DNA from: Alphaproteobacteria bacterium
Lineage (GTDB): Bacteria > Pseudomonadota > Alphaproteobacteria > Puniceispirillales > Puniceispirillaceae
Assembly (NCBI GenBank): GCA_016780775.1
Contig: JADHLI010000010.1
Coordinates: forward strand, 1 to 64,000
Length of the DNA stretch: 64,000 nt
Direction of reading: 5' to 3'
Part shown: positions 4,897-9,653 of the stretch, one piece after another
Layout: each line of letters opens with the position of its first letter
Numbering within the stretch: the first letter of the stretch is position 1
Made by a program: the position numbers and the translations under genes
Notes under the pieces: generated by a model
Databases searched by the model: none
Seen by the model: the letters and a program-made list of their open reading frames with translations, nothing else
What the model was told of the DNA's origin: nothing

Positions 4897-5592
4897 ATGG
4901 CCAATAGATTAGCCCTAGTGGATGATGATCAAAATATTTTAGCTTCTGTTTCGCTGGCACTCGAATCTGAAGGCTATGAGGTGGACACCTATTTTGATAG
5001 TGAGCAAGCTCTGATTGGCCTTATTCAACGCCCCCCCGCGCTCGCTATACTAGACATTAAAATGCCGCGTATGGATGGCACAGAACTGCTTAGCAAGCTA
5101 CGCCAAAAATCAAGTTTACCAGTAATATTTCTAACCAGTAAAGATGATGAGCTTGATGAAGCCTTAGGCCTTGGTATGGGCGCGGATGACTATATAACTA
5201 AGCCGTTTTCGCAGCGTTTATTGCTGGCCAGAATTAAGGCTGTGTTGCGGAGGATTGGGCATGAGACATCGCCCGGACCAAAGGCAGATACCATCTCACA
5301 TGGCGATCTTGTGCTGGACCCAGAACGCCATCTTTGTAGCTGGAAAGGGGTGGAGGTAAAGCTAACAGTTACTGAATTTTTATTACTTCAAGCGCTAGCC
5401 CTGCGTCCTGGTCATGTCAAAAGCCGTGACCAGCTAATGGATGCAGCTTATGGCGATTCTGTTTTCCTAGAGGACAGAACTATTGATAGCCATATTAAGC
5501 GCATCCGTAGAAAATTTCGTGCCCATGATAATAGTTTTGACCGAATTGAGACCCTCTACGGTATTGGCTATAAATATAAGGGCGATGCCTAA
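4897..5592 (+). CDS. response regulator, OmpR/PhoB family, ChvI-like
   Basis: A 231-residue two-component regulator. The receiver domain (1-120) has the acidic pocket LVDDD (8-11), phospho-acceptor Asp53 in [13 protein letters not shown], and the conserved Thr and Lys in FLTSKDD and DYITKPFS. The C-terminal winged helix (about 135-231) ends [13 protein letters not shown], typical of OmpR/PhoB proteins. A good AGAGGAGAG ribosome site precedes the ATG. The paired kinase lies 49 nt downstream. Position ahead of rapZ and ahcY matches the alphaproteobacterial ChvI/ChvG locus, which controls envelope, acid-stress and symbiosis genes in rhizobia; the targets here are unknown. Confidence 0.88.
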
Positions 5593-5641: not shown

Positions 5642-7234
5642 GTGAGCGGGAAAAAGCGCTACTGGCCATCTTTTATTAGTCCGCTCTCAGCGCGCATTCT
5701 TGCTATTATGCTTCTGCCTTTGGCGCTATTTTTCATTGGCTTGTTTTCTATTGATCAATATCGCTCTGTACTGGTGCGTGCTGAATTTGACGCGTTGGAG
5801 CGTCAGGGTATGACGCTTGCTCGCTCGCTGGCGCTTGCGGAGGCTGACCGAACAGGAGGGATGGTTGCCACAAGAGAGCTATCGCCGCAAACTATGCGTC
5901 ATCTTCTGCCGCTTGTGGGTTATGGCTCACAACTTCGAGCCCGTGTTTTTCAGCCACAAGGCCAGTTGATGGCAGATACCTTCCGGCGCGGCGACCGCTT
6001 TCCGATGACCCGTATTAGGCGGCGTGAGCCAGTAGATTTTTCCAATAGGTTTCGCGTTAAGACGGTTGGTGCCTTTAACAATCTGGCTGACCTGATTTCT
6101 AATCGTCCGCCTGTGCCAGTGATGAATTTGCGTGGCTTGCGTCATGCGGATGGTTTGCGTGATGTGCGTGCAGCGTTATCTGGGGATATTGTGCGCAATA
6201 TGTGGCGCAATCCGCGTGGCCAACTAGTGCTATCTGTTAGTCTGCCAATACAGAATTTGCGAGTGGTGCGCGGCGCGCTCCTAATGACCAGTACAGGCGG
6301 CAATATTGAGCGGGAAATCGCGAATGTACAATGGGCCTTTGTGCAGCTCTTTATGGGTATTTTAACAGTAACCATTTTGCTAGGGCTGTATCTGGCGCGC
6401 TCTATTACCCGGCCAATTGTATTTTTAGCTGCTTCTGCAGATCGGTTGCGGCAAACCGGGGATATTCAGACCCCCTTGCGAGGCCTGCCTGAGCGTAAGG
6501 ACGAAATTGGCCAGCTATCACAAGCCTTGAGCGATATGACCGCAGAATTACAACGCCGTATTCAGGCAACGGCTAAATTTGCTGCTGATGTTTCGCATGA
6601 AATAAAAAACCCGCTGACGTCTTTGCGCTCTGCTGTAGAGACGGTGGCGCGGATTGATAACCCTGAACAGCAGCGCAAATTGATGGATGTTATTTTAACC
6701 GATGTTAACCGGCTGGATAGGCTTATCACCGATATCAGCCAAGCTAGCCGTGTGGATGCAGAGCTAACAGGTCAAACCCCAGAGCCAGAGGATATCACGG
6801 CTCTATTGGAAAGCTGGGCTGAGGTGTCGCGCGCACGTTTTGGCCAGCATAGGCTAAGCTATCAGCCCTATAAAAAAGCCTTGATGGTGCGAATGTATAA
6901 CACCCGCATCATTCAGATTCTGGATAATCTTCTAGCAAACGCGATGACTTTTCATGATGGCGAAGAGCCCATTATCCTTAGCGTCAAGCGGCTACGTGGA
7001 CAGGTTCAGATCAGCCTTGCCGACAAGGGGCCTGGTCTACCAGCAGGTAAAGAAGAGCGTATTTTTGACCGGTTTTATACAGAGCGTCCATCATCTGAAG
7101 GGTTTGGCAAGCATTCTGGCCTTGGTCTGTCTATCGCGCGGCAAATTGCCATCGCTCATGGTGGCCAGCTAAAAGGGGCTAGTGATAAATCTGGTGGGGC
7201 GATTTTCACCCTTACACTTCCGCTAGCGGATTAG
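5642..7234 (+). CDS. sensor histidine kinase, ChvG-like
   Basis: A 530-residue membrane kinase paired with the regulator just upstream. Two membrane segments (about 17-37 and 233-253) enclose a periplasmic sensor of about 195 residues. A HAMP linker follows (LARSITRPIVFLAASADRL), then the phospho-acceptor H-box FAADVSHEIKNPLTSLR and the ATPase boxes LLANAMTF (N), DKGPGLP (G1) and HSGLGLSIA (G2). Translation starts with GTG at 5642 behind AAGGAGGG. In ChvG homologs the sensor responds to acid or envelope stress, often through periplasmic ExoR; no ExoR gene is in the window. Confidence 0.87.
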   Translation: MSGKKRYWPSFISPLSARILAIMLLPLALFFIGLFSIDQYRSVLVRAEFDALERQGMTLARSLALAEADRTGGMVATRELSPQTMRHLLPLVGYGSQLRARVFQPQGQLMADTFRRGDRFPMTRIRRREPVDFSNRFRVKTVGAFNNLADLISNRPPVPVMNLRGLRHADGLRDVRAALSGDIVRNMWRNPRGQLVLSVSLPIQNLRVVRGALLMTSTGGNIEREIANVQWAFVQLFMGILTVTILLGLYLARSITRPIVFLAASADRLRQTGDIQTPLRGLPERKDEIGQLSQALSDMTAELQRRIQATAKFAADVSHEIKNPLTSLRSAVETVARIDNPEQQRKLMDVILTDVNRLDRLITDISQASRVDAELTGQTPEPEDITALLESWAEVSRARFGQHRLSYQPYKKALMVRMYNTRIIQILDNLLANAMTFHDGEEPIILSVKRLRGQVQISLADKGPGLPAGKEERIFDRFYTERPSSEGFGKHSGLGLSIARQIAIAHGGQLKGASDKSGGAIFTLTLPLAD

Positions 7235-7259
7235 CTGTGAAGTTGCTATCCTCTGATCT

Positions 7260-8171
7260 ATGAGCGATAGCAACAGTGAAAACGCATTAAATTCTGAAAC
7301 GCATGGAAGTGCCAATGATACTGGTCGTCTGGTGATCGTAATAGGCCAGTCAGGTTCTGGCCATTCCACTGCGCTAGGTTGCCTTGAAGATGCAGGGTTT
7401 AGTGCAATAGATAATTTGCCACTTGCCCTTATTGACCAGCTCGTTGCGTTATCGGTTGAAACCGAAAAACAGCATATTGCGGTCTGCGCAGATTTACGCA
7501 CCTCTGGCTTTGATGCTAAGGCAATTGAGCGGCTGGTAGGCAATTTACGAAACCGACTTGCAGATCAGTGCCAGCTGGTCCTGATAACTGCCCAGCCGCA
7601 GGAAATTTTGCGCCGCCATCAGGCAACACGTCGTCGCCACCCCCTTCAGAAAAGCGCGCCAAGCCTTGAGGCAGCAATAGAAACAGATCAAATTTCTGTG
7701 GATGCACTCCGTCACCTGGCTGATTTGCATATCGACAGCACAGAGACAACGCCAGTTGAATTTTGCAGTGCTTTATTAAGCCGTCTAGGGCTTGCTCAGC
7801 AAAGTCAGGCACAGCTTAACATCCTCAGCTTTTCCTATCGCCGCGGCCTGCCTTCTGCAGCAGATTTTATTTTTGATATGCGGTTTTTGGCTAATCCGCA
7901 TTGGCAAAAGGAGCTGCGTGCGCAAACTGGGCAGGACAGCGCAGTTAAAGATTTTGTTCAAGCAGACGAAGCTTTTCAGCCTTTCATGGATGGGGTATCA
8001 GCGCTTGTCTCTGCCAGTCTGCCGCGTTTGCGCAGCGATGGGCGCGGGCAGATAACCCTTGCATTTGGTTGTACTGGTGGGCGACATCGATCGGTTGCTA
8101 GCGCAAACTGGTTTGCTAATTGGGCAGCGACACAGAATATGGTGGCACAGCTTTACCACCGCGACTTATAA
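7260..8171 (+). CDS. rapZ: RapZ/YvcJ family nucleotide-binding protein with altered P-loop
   Basis: A 303-residue RapZ family protein. In E. coli RapZ is an RNA-binding adaptor that senses glucosamine-6-phosphate and directs RNase E to the GlmZ sRNA. The fold is recognisable from LEDAGFSAIDNLPLALIDQL after the P-loop and from the C-terminal FIFDMRFLANPHW and FGCTGGRHRSV motifs, the phosphosugar-sensing part. The Walker A reads GQSGSGHST (residues 29-37): His35 replaces the Lys that contacts nucleotide phosphates, so ATP/GTP binding is probably impaired. The C-terminal domain looks intact. The gene starts 25 nt after the kinase. The hprK and PTS genes that often lie between chvG and this locus are absent. 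Confidence 0.9.
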   Translation: MSDSNSENALNSETHGSANDTGRLVIVIGQSGSGHSTALGCLEDAGFSAIDNLPLALIDQLVALSVETEKQHIAVCADLRTSGFDAKAIERLVGNLRNRLADQCQLVLITAQPQEILRRHQATRRRHPLQKSAPSLEAAIETDQISVDALRHLADLHIDSTETTPVEFCSALLSRLGLAQQSQAQLNILSFSYRRGLPSAADFIFDMRFLANPHWQKELRAQTGQDSAVKDFVQADEAFQPFMDGVSALVSASLPRLRSDGRGQITLAFGCTGGRHRSVASANWFANWAATQNMVAQLYHRDL

Positions 8172-8258
8172 GTTTTTGCATTATGCCTTGCTATTTGCTA
8201 ACCAAGGGTCAGGATATTTACGGGGTGATGATTTTATGCCGCGAACAGGAGTTATTTT

Positions 8259-9653
8259 ATGTCTAATGATTATGTGATTGCCGATATTAGCCTTGCTGAT
8301 TGGGGGCGTAAAGAAATCGCCATTGCTGAAAATGAAATGCCGGGTTTGATGGCTCTGCGCGAAGAAAATGCAGGCGTAAAGCCGCTGGCAGGTGCGCGTA
8401 TCGCCGGCTGTTTGCATATGACTATTCAAACAGCGGTGCTTATTGAAACACTTGCGGACCTAGGGGCTGATATTCGCTGGTCATCTTGTAATATTTTTTC
8501 AACCCAAGATCAGGCAGCAGCTGCCATAGCGGCGCGCGGCATTCCTGTATTTGCTGTGAAGGGTGAGACGCTAGCAGATTACTGGGAATATGTTGACCGT
8601 ATTTTTGACTGGTCAGATGACGCGCCGGCTAATCTAATTCTCGATGATGGCGGTGATGCAACTATGTATATTCTGCTAGGTGCGCGCATCGAAGCAGGTG
8701 AAACAGTGCTGGAAAATCCGGCTACAGAAGAAGAGGAGTTCCTAAAAGCCCAGCTTCTGAAGCGGCATGCTGCTAGCCCTGGTTGGTTTACCCGCCAGAA
8801 AGATGCCATCATCGGCGTATCAGAAGAGACAACCACGGGGGTTCTGCGCTTGTATCAAATGGCGGAAAAGGGCCAGCTACCTTTCCCAGCTATAAATGTG
8901 AATGATTCTGTTACAAAGTCAAAATTTGATAATCTTTACGGTTGCCGAGAATCACTAGTGGATGGTATTCGCCGCGCCACCGATGTGATGTTGGCTGGTA
9001 AAGTTGCGGTTGTCGCAGGGTATGGCGATGTTGGCAAAGGCTCTGCTGCTTCGCTCCGTCAGGGCGGTGCGCGTGTTATGGTGACTGAAATTGATCCAAT
9101 TTGTGCGCTTCAAGCCGCGATGGAAGGCTATGAAGTTGTCACTATGGATGAGGCTGCAAGCAAGGCAGATATTTTTGTTACCGCTACGGGCAATAAGGAT
9201 GTCATCACGCTTGATCATATGCGTGATATGAAAGAGCGGGCTATTGTATGTAATATCGGACATTTCGATAATGAAATTCAAGTTGCCTCGCTTAACAACA
9301 TGGCTTGGACAGAAGTCAAGCCGCAGGTAGATGAGGTTGAATTCCCAGATGGCAAACGCATCATTTTGCTAGCAAAGGGGCGTCTAGTAAATCTGGGTTG
9401 CGCAACAGGTCATCCTTCTTTTGTGATGTCAGCTTCCTTTACTAATCAGGTGCTGGCGCAAATAGAGCTGTGGCAGCGTAGCGGTGAGTATGAGCAACGC
9501 GTATATACCCTGCCGCGTCATCTGGATGAAAAGGTAGCTGCCTTGCATCTGGAAAAGGTGGGGGCTCAACTAACCAAATTACGCGAAGACCAAGCAGACT
9601 ATATTGGCGTTGAACAGCAAGGCCCGTTCAAGTCTGAACAATATCGCTATTAA
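8259..9653 (+). CDS. ahcY: adenosylhomocysteinase
   Basis: A 464-residue S-adenosylhomocysteine hydrolase. It splits the methylation by-product SAH into adenosine and homocysteine, keeping the methyl cycle running in the cytosol. The NAD-binding motif [17 protein letters not shown], the substrate region [16 protein letters not shown], and the C-terminal tail ending FKSEQYRY, whose Lys and Tyr contact NAD of the neighbouring subunit, are all present. A loop of about 40 residues near 150-190, typical of proteobacterial enzymes, is retained. Its place downstream of the chvIG locus is a conserved alphaproteobacterial arrangement. Confidence 0.97.

Follow-up and report, generated by a model that had tools for sequence, protein, structure and literature searches.

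Genetic organization of the rapZ locus

The window analyzed here is a stretch of 64,000 nucleotides (contig JADHLI010000010.1, positions 1 to 64,000, forward strand) from a member of the Puniceispirillaceae within the Alphaproteobacteria. The genes around rapZ are arranged in the order chvI-chvG-rapZ-ahcY, all on the + strand. The first two encode a response regulator of the ChvI type (4897–5592) and a sensor histidine kinase of the ChvG type (5642–7234), which were assigned by ORF, Pfam match and locus comparison and named by synteny. They are followed by rapZ (7260–8171) and by ahcY, encoding S-adenosylhomocysteine hydrolase (8259–9653; ORF and Pfam). According to the ORFs and the comparison of loci, the gap of 25 bases between chvG and rapZ (7235–7259, +) is the place where hprK is usually found in other alphaproteobacterial loci, and the gap of 87 bases between rapZ and ahcY (8172–8258, +) is the usual place of EIIA and HPr. 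The loci of the family showed the same gene order over their available span, and ahcY was mostly followed by a frame called tsaE by eye.

The rapZ CDS starts with ATG and encodes 303 aa; it was defined by its ORF, by Pfam and NCBIfam matches and by alignment to the E. coli protein. Both domains of RapZ, a bacterial sensor protein for cell-wall precursors, were present in full length and above the curated cut-offs, with 101.2 bits for RapZ-like_N (PF03668; cut-off 25.4) and 132.7 bits for the C-terminal domain (PF22740; cut-off 27). The NCBIfam model of the RNase adapter RapZ (NF003828) scored 269.7 bits (cut-off 244). It was the single RapZ-like_N match in the genome, which is 99.56% complete and consists of 44 contigs. 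E. coli RapZ (YhbJ; 5o5o, 5o5q, 8b0i, 8b0j) is a full-length homolog (E 1.1e-49) with the same two domains.

The Walker A motif or P-loop of the window protein reads GQSGSGHST (residues 29–37; 7344–7370, +), encoded by ggc cag tca ggt tct ggc cat tcc act, and thus departs from the canonical GX4GK[ST] with its Lys. In the alignments to 5o5o and 5o5q, which cover residues 24–302, His35 (CAT; 7362–7364, +) lies opposite the Walker A Lys of E. coli, an assignment that agrees with the codon reading and the codons of the same genus. A preliminary description, made from the letters of the window, had named an intact RapZ with exactly this motif and with a CAT-encoded His replacing the Lys, and our domain matches, codons and alignments bear it out in each of these points.

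Residue 35 within the genus and the family

To follow the distribution of the replacement, 61 genomes of the same family were searched at the protein level. RapZ was found in 51 of them, representing 10 of 11 genera, and in all 28 genomes with a completeness of at least 90% and a contamination of at most 5%. Eight genomes belong to the genus of the window; one gave no match, and the seven readable ones all carried His at residue 35 (CAT in four, CAC in three). Across the 51 rapZ-bearing genomes the residue was His in 25, Leu in 15, Lys in 9, Met in one and Asn in one. Lys was hence absent from 42 of the 51 genomes and from nine of the ten RapZ-bearing genera. The nine Lys genomes all belong to one genus, here named g7, and use the codon AAA throughout. 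Since Lys is present in all nine, the residue is not useless everywhere.

The tally by genomes includes G005, whose gene is split over two contigs (L008 and L096); it was left out of the column statistics, which are based on 50 full-length rows. Excluded from the counts were L001 and L097–L113 as repeats of other loci, and the second loci of G059 (L074) and G060 (L073) on account of probable bin mixing. The latter two (G059:C122 and G060:C49) are extra chvG-rapZ-ahcY-tsaE loci, with DNA approximately 98–99% identical to that of G046, a genome of another genus.

A quick tree of 64 rows required five changes of residue 35 inside the family and placed g7 among genera with His, Leu and Met; this clade had an SH-aLRT value of 81 and the tree came with a long-branch warning, so that g7 may either have retained its Lys or have regained it.

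Residue 35 in other Alphaproteobacteria and other phyla

Outside the family, 110 sampled alphaproteobacterial loci carried Arg (52), Lys (42), Leu (6), His (4), Met (4), Gln (1) or Thr (1). This sample is non-random: an HMM search matched 232 of 386 genomes, and the loci comprise the 30 best-scoring matches and 80 picked among the matches listed, usually one or two and up to four per family code, so that lineages with weak RapZ matches are under-sampled. The preliminary description had started from GKS or GKT as the rule for RapZ. For the Alphaproteobacteria this premise does not hold, since Lys was found in 42 of these 110 loci and Arg was the commonest residue.

A further 79 named loci came from a set of relatives ordered by their similarity to the window protein, namely the best 80 of at least 592. 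Here Lys was present in all 19 Gammaproteobacteria and in seven of eight Bacillota, the eighth having Arg; Arg was found in all four Actinomycetota and in the one representative of the Myxococcota. Among the named Alphaproteobacteria, the Sphingomonadales had Lys in 19 of 19 loci, the Rhodospirillales Lys (6), Arg (3), Met (2) and His (1), and the Rhodobacterales Arg (3) and Lys (1).

With column 35 masked, a FastTree phylogeny of 239 rows required a minimum of 10 changes between Lys/Arg and any other residue and of 32 between Lys and non-Lys. The minima in 200 label shuffles on the same tree were 47 and 68, respectively. The state of residue 35 is thus inherited within clades and was changed repeatedly.

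The exchange of Lys for Arg is already published for Rv1421. The literature searched contained nothing on the forms with His, Leu, Met and Asn or on the minority status of Lys in alphaproteobacterial RapZ, and nothing in it joined RapZ, Walker A and Alphaproteobacteria, nor YvcJ and Alphaproteobacteria; an earlier published alignment may show these forms.

Conservation and selection around residue 35

In the P-loop, G29, G32, G34, S36 and T37 were invariant in all 50 full-length family rows. The same was true for D44, D51, N52, P54, D78, R80, T81, R119, R124, R125, H127 and P128, and S31 (Ser 45, Ala 5) and T123 (Thr 49) were nearly so. Several of these residues form short motifs downstream of the P-loop: DNLP (residues 51–54; 7410–7421, +), the Walker B-like DLRT (residues 78–81; 7491–7502, +) and RHQATRRRHP (residues 119–128; 7614–7643, +). 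D51, N52, R119, R124, H127 and P128 were invariant even in the three compared groups, the "gamma/Firmicutes" comparison group of 28 rows being hand-picked and composed of Lys rows only. Column 35 itself had an entropy of 1.70 bits in the family and ranked 164 of 280 when counted from the most conserved column. As most other residues of the P-loop and the pocket are invariant, the lysine position alone is free to vary. Column 35 varied likewise in the 110 other alphaproteobacterial loci, where the pattern was similar and S36, T37 and T81 were more variable.

The N-terminal domain was the more conserved of the two in the 50 family rows (mean entropy 1.33 bits vs 1.52 bits for the C-terminal domain). 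Purifying selection acts on both domains in every genus measured. Based on 1 to 27 non-independent pairs per genus, the median omega within genera was 0.163 (g1), 0.151 (g3), 0.074 (g5), 0.066 (g6), 0.083 (g7) and 0.128 (g9) for the N-terminal domain and ranged from 0.095 to 0.152 for the C-terminal domain. Of the five non-Lys genera, g1, g3 and g9 had N-terminal values above that of the Lys genus g7, and g5 and g6 had values below it, so mild relaxation is possible. A domain that is simply dead would hardly retain the phosphate loop and the arginines.

Basic residues were compared between the non-Lys genera and g7, and seven columns differed (86, 110, 256, 292, 295, 296 and 301). None of them was an evident replacement, and a compensating lysine elsewhere in the protein was rejected. 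All nine g7 sequences (L010–L014, L016, L018, L019 and L021) carry Leu in place of R301, which is Arg in the 40 readable others; they also have K295 in nine and H296 in eight of nine cases. When mutual information with column 35 was calculated for the family, Q30 was the sole P-loop column among the top 12, and the remaining columns of this group probably reflect phylogeny.

Structural comparison of the N-terminal domain

An AlphaFold2 model of the window protein, built from 45 rows, had a mean pLDDT of 90.3 and a pTM of 0.68. Compared by parts, it matched the N-terminal domain of Rv1421 with bound ligand (9m1v; Z 20.8, rmsd 2.1 Å over 155 residues) and the C-terminal domain of E. coli RapZ (5o5s; Z 21.7, rmsd 1.1 Å over 121 residues). 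The next structural matches were small-molecule kinases, among them a sugar kinase and shikimate kinase, with Z values of at most 13.6. Fits of the whole chain were poor, with an rmsd of 15.4 Å to unliganded Rv1421 (9m1q) and of 12–14 Å to the full-length E. coli chains. We take this as a different placing of the parts.

Rv1421 of M. tuberculosis thus resembles the window protein in its fold, in the replacement of the Walker A Lys and in an otherwise similar P-loop. It differs in that it carries Arg instead of His, and its neighbour is GlmR (Rv1422), as described in PMC11229554, whereas the GlmR family had no match in the genome of the window.

The C-terminal domain and its possible partners

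The preliminary description had expected that an RNA or sugar role of the C-terminal domain persists. The sugar part of this expectation is upheld by the pocket residues. His214 (7899–7901, +) corresponds to E. coli His190 of the sugar-phosphate pocket in the structural alignment, with a numbering offset of 24 (pocket as described in PMC5737377), and the segment GCTGGRHRSV (residues 270–279; 8067–8096, +) forms the C-terminal ligand pocket according to column conservation and pocket comparison. All five residues equivalent to E. coli H190, T248, G249, H252 and R253 are present in the window protein, and they are kept in 46, 49, 50, 50 and 50 of the 50 family rows, respectively.

The RNA part fared differently. 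The RNA-binding consensus of E. coli RapZ is given as RxRxKNxQxRHRTxxKRK (PMC7525490), and the window protein lacks this basic C-terminal stretch. In the alignment, Met294 and Tyr299 occupy the positions of E. coli K270 and R275, and the chain stops at residue 303 with no KRK tail. The missing basic residues and tail make it unlikely, on the evidence of the alignment, that the protein binds RNA in the E. coli manner. A basic tail was present in two of eight printed examples from other Alphaproteobacteria. GlmZ (RF00083) had no match in the genome of the window, with a positive E. coli control; an unrelated partner RNA is possible. RNase E/G was found in the genome (PF10150, E 1.2e-99). The GlmR/YvcK/CofD family (PF01933) gave no match there, while the control was matched in 10 of 14 genomes. 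The window protein therefore shares the conserved C-terminal pocket with E. coli RapZ and differs from it in His35 in place of the P-loop Lys, in Met294 and Tyr299, in the absent basic tail and in the missing GlmZ match.

The PTS core is missing in the family

In other Alphaproteobacteria the usual order is (chvI-chvG-)hprK-rapZ-EIIA-HPr(-ahcY), and a cluster chvI/chvC-hprK-manX-ptsO is described for this class in PMC13104625. Profiles derived from three seed proteins detected hprK, EIIA and HPr together at 78 of the 110 loci outside the family. For 30 loci (L032–L061) only about 1.5 kb per side was available, so that an absence there means little. The 11 loci without any of the three genes all belong to the 80 loci that reach up to about 3.5 kb per side, some of which (L205, L254, L256 and L257) are truncated by the end of a contig. 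The window locus has ChvI, ChvG and AhcY as neighbours in common with the loci that carry hprK, EIIA and HPr, in which Lys is often replaced as well, but at the window locus these PTS genes are gone.

Genome-wide searches covered enzyme I (EI), HPr and HprK. HPr was found in one of 61 family genomes and HprK above the cut-off in one of 61, both on a single contig of G034, and enzyme I was found in none of the 29 family genomes of 90% completeness. The family is without EI, HPr and HprK, the PTS core, a statement that rests on HPr and EI (controls matched in 7 of 14 each) and on the gene order. The B. subtilis control remained unmatched for RapZ-like_N (PF03668) and for the HPr kinase (PF07475), although B. 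subtilis encodes both YvcJ and HprK, so that the genome search can miss true members. Nine further HprK matches below the cut-off, in nine family genomes, lie in frames of 531–549 aa and, judged from this length, probably represent PEP carboxykinase.

The G034 contig (C19; L062 and L072) carries an hprK-EIIA-HPr cluster beside an ETF alpha-like frame, called by eye, and no rapZ on the stretch examined; the bin is 7% contaminated, and the contig is probably foreign. Outside the family, eight loci (L203, L205, L215, L222, L227, L229, L249 and L254) combine rapZ with ahcY and yielded none of hprK, EIIA and HPr in the sequence examined, which in L205 and L254 is truncated by the end of the contig. 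PTS genes around alphaproteobacterial rapZ may have been lost more than once.

A putative ligand sensor

The published biochemistry of the RapZ family gives a frame for these observations. YvcJ of B. subtilis binds nucleotide and UDP-GlcNAc and has GlmR as partner; its exchange K22A is reported to abolish binding of both ATP and UDP-GlcNAc and to leave the interaction with GlmR intact (PMC7525490). YvcJ is a member of the same family as the window protein but differs from it by this required Lys. In Rv1421, which has Arg30 at the position of Lys, 5 mM ligand led to stabilisation by 9.3 degrees with UDP, 3.5 with UDP-GlcNAc, 3.0 with ADP and, weakly, 1.3 with ATP (PMC11229554). The P-loop of E. 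coli RapZ holds a sulfate mainly via backbone amides (PMC5737377). Preliminary data on UDP-GlcNAc binding by E. coli RapZ are mentioned in PMC9841335, whose authors suggest from cryoEM that the N-terminal domain is an allosteric switch with a "yet unknown" ligand.

The reading to which we incline, and which we hold to be only slightly better than a coin toss, is that the window protein is a true RapZ ortholog whose N-terminal kinase fold lost the lysine for phosphate transfer and kept most of its pocket under selection. It would then act as a ligand sensor coupled to the C-terminal pocket and not as a kinase that consumes ATP or GTP. Because the remainder of the binding pocket is fixed, RapZ may serve in sensing and not as a kinase. 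The ligand, either phosphate-bearing or a uridine nucleotide, would be gripped by the P-loop backbone of the N-terminal domain, and its sensing would be coupled to the sugar-phosphate pocket of the C-terminal domain. By analogy with Rv1421 and YvcJ the candidate ligand would be UDP or UDP-GlcNAc, and catalysis in the N-terminal domain would be lost. The output may be a control of envelope precursors, perhaps via the adjoining two-component system or via GlmS. The rapZ gene lies next to a ChvG/ChvI-type system, which is no more than a hint of envelope control.

The preliminary description had proposed that nucleotide binding may be lost. This is perhaps too simple, given that Rv1421 with its natural Arg binds UDP, UDP-GlcNAc and ADP (as reported in PMC11229554) and that the pocket is mostly invariant here. 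However, the Arg of Rv1421 is closer to Lys than are the His, Leu, Met and Asn of the family. Judged by the YvcJ K22A variant, with its loss of UDP-GlcNAc and ATP binding (PMC7525490), a lysine-free pocket might bind nothing.

This leads to the strongest of the alternatives, in which the N-terminal domain is a dead NTPase that serves as a scaffold of the tetramer, with nothing bound at the P-loop and all function in the C-terminal domain. It can draw on the K22A variant of YvcJ, which still meets GlmR, on the path of the sRNA in E. coli, which bypasses the Walker motifs (PMC9841335), and on N-terminal omega values that lie somewhat above that of g7 in g1, g3 and g9. Against it stand most of the other residues of the P-loop and the pocket, which are invariant in 50 of 50 rows although a mere scaffold would have little need of them, and an omega in the N-terminal domain that does not exceed 0.163. 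We regard this explanation as unlikely, with roughly one chance in four granted to it.

Rather less probable is a domain that is still an active NTPase, in which His, or Leu, Met or Asn, at residue 35 is tolerated or another basic residue substitutes for the lysine. The invariance of R119, R124 and R125 and of S36 and T37 in all 50 family rows would fit such an enzyme, but neither Leu (15 of 51 genomes) nor Met (one genome) can act as a catalytic cation. Furthermore, only R256 and R301 are commoner in the non-Lys genera than in g7, and neither is near the P-loop in sequence.

That Lys disappeared as a consequence of losing the PTS/HprK partner system is a poor explanation, even though the family is without EI, HPr and HprK and mostly without Lys: the g7 locus is free of PTS genes, yet RapZ of this genus carries Lys. 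Outside the family all three PTS genes were missing at two of 16 loci with neither Lys nor Arg vs nine of 94 Lys/Arg loci, counts given without a statistical test, and 11 of the 16 retained hprK, EIIA and HPr. We therefore disfavour PTS loss as the cause.

A sequencing or assembly error at His35 can be dismissed with near certainty in view of the two synonymous codons in seven of seven readable genomes of the genus, and the preliminary description had named both such an error and a Lys in all near relatives as findings that would speak against its claim; neither holds.

Implications for alphaproteobacterial RapZ

Extended beyond the window, the idea of a ligand sensor becomes more tentative, and we would put it at slightly less than an even chance. 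Alphaproteobacterial RapZ would be a lysine-free pseudo-kinase in which the Lys was exchanged many times, for Arg, His, Leu, Met, Asn, Gln or Thr, with the rest of the pocket fixed. It would read a nucleotide, possibly a uridine nucleotide, or phosphate without hydrolysis, in the family of the window in the absence of EI, HPr and HprK, PTS proteins that are usually encoded next to rapZ or that feed those encoded there.

Annotators should be wary of taking the loss of the Walker A Lys in an alphaproteobacterial RapZ as a sign of a dead or mis-sequenced gene. Even in E. coli the function of the kinase-like half is still a question, with an allosteric switch as the suggestion made in PMC9841335. 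The natural series of Lys, Arg, His, Leu, Met and Asn in a largely fixed pocket makes the question of catalyst or sensor directly testable. With a family RapZ that has no PTS core beside it, and a genome of the window without a GlmZ or GlmR match, the basic role of RapZ could be studied on its own.
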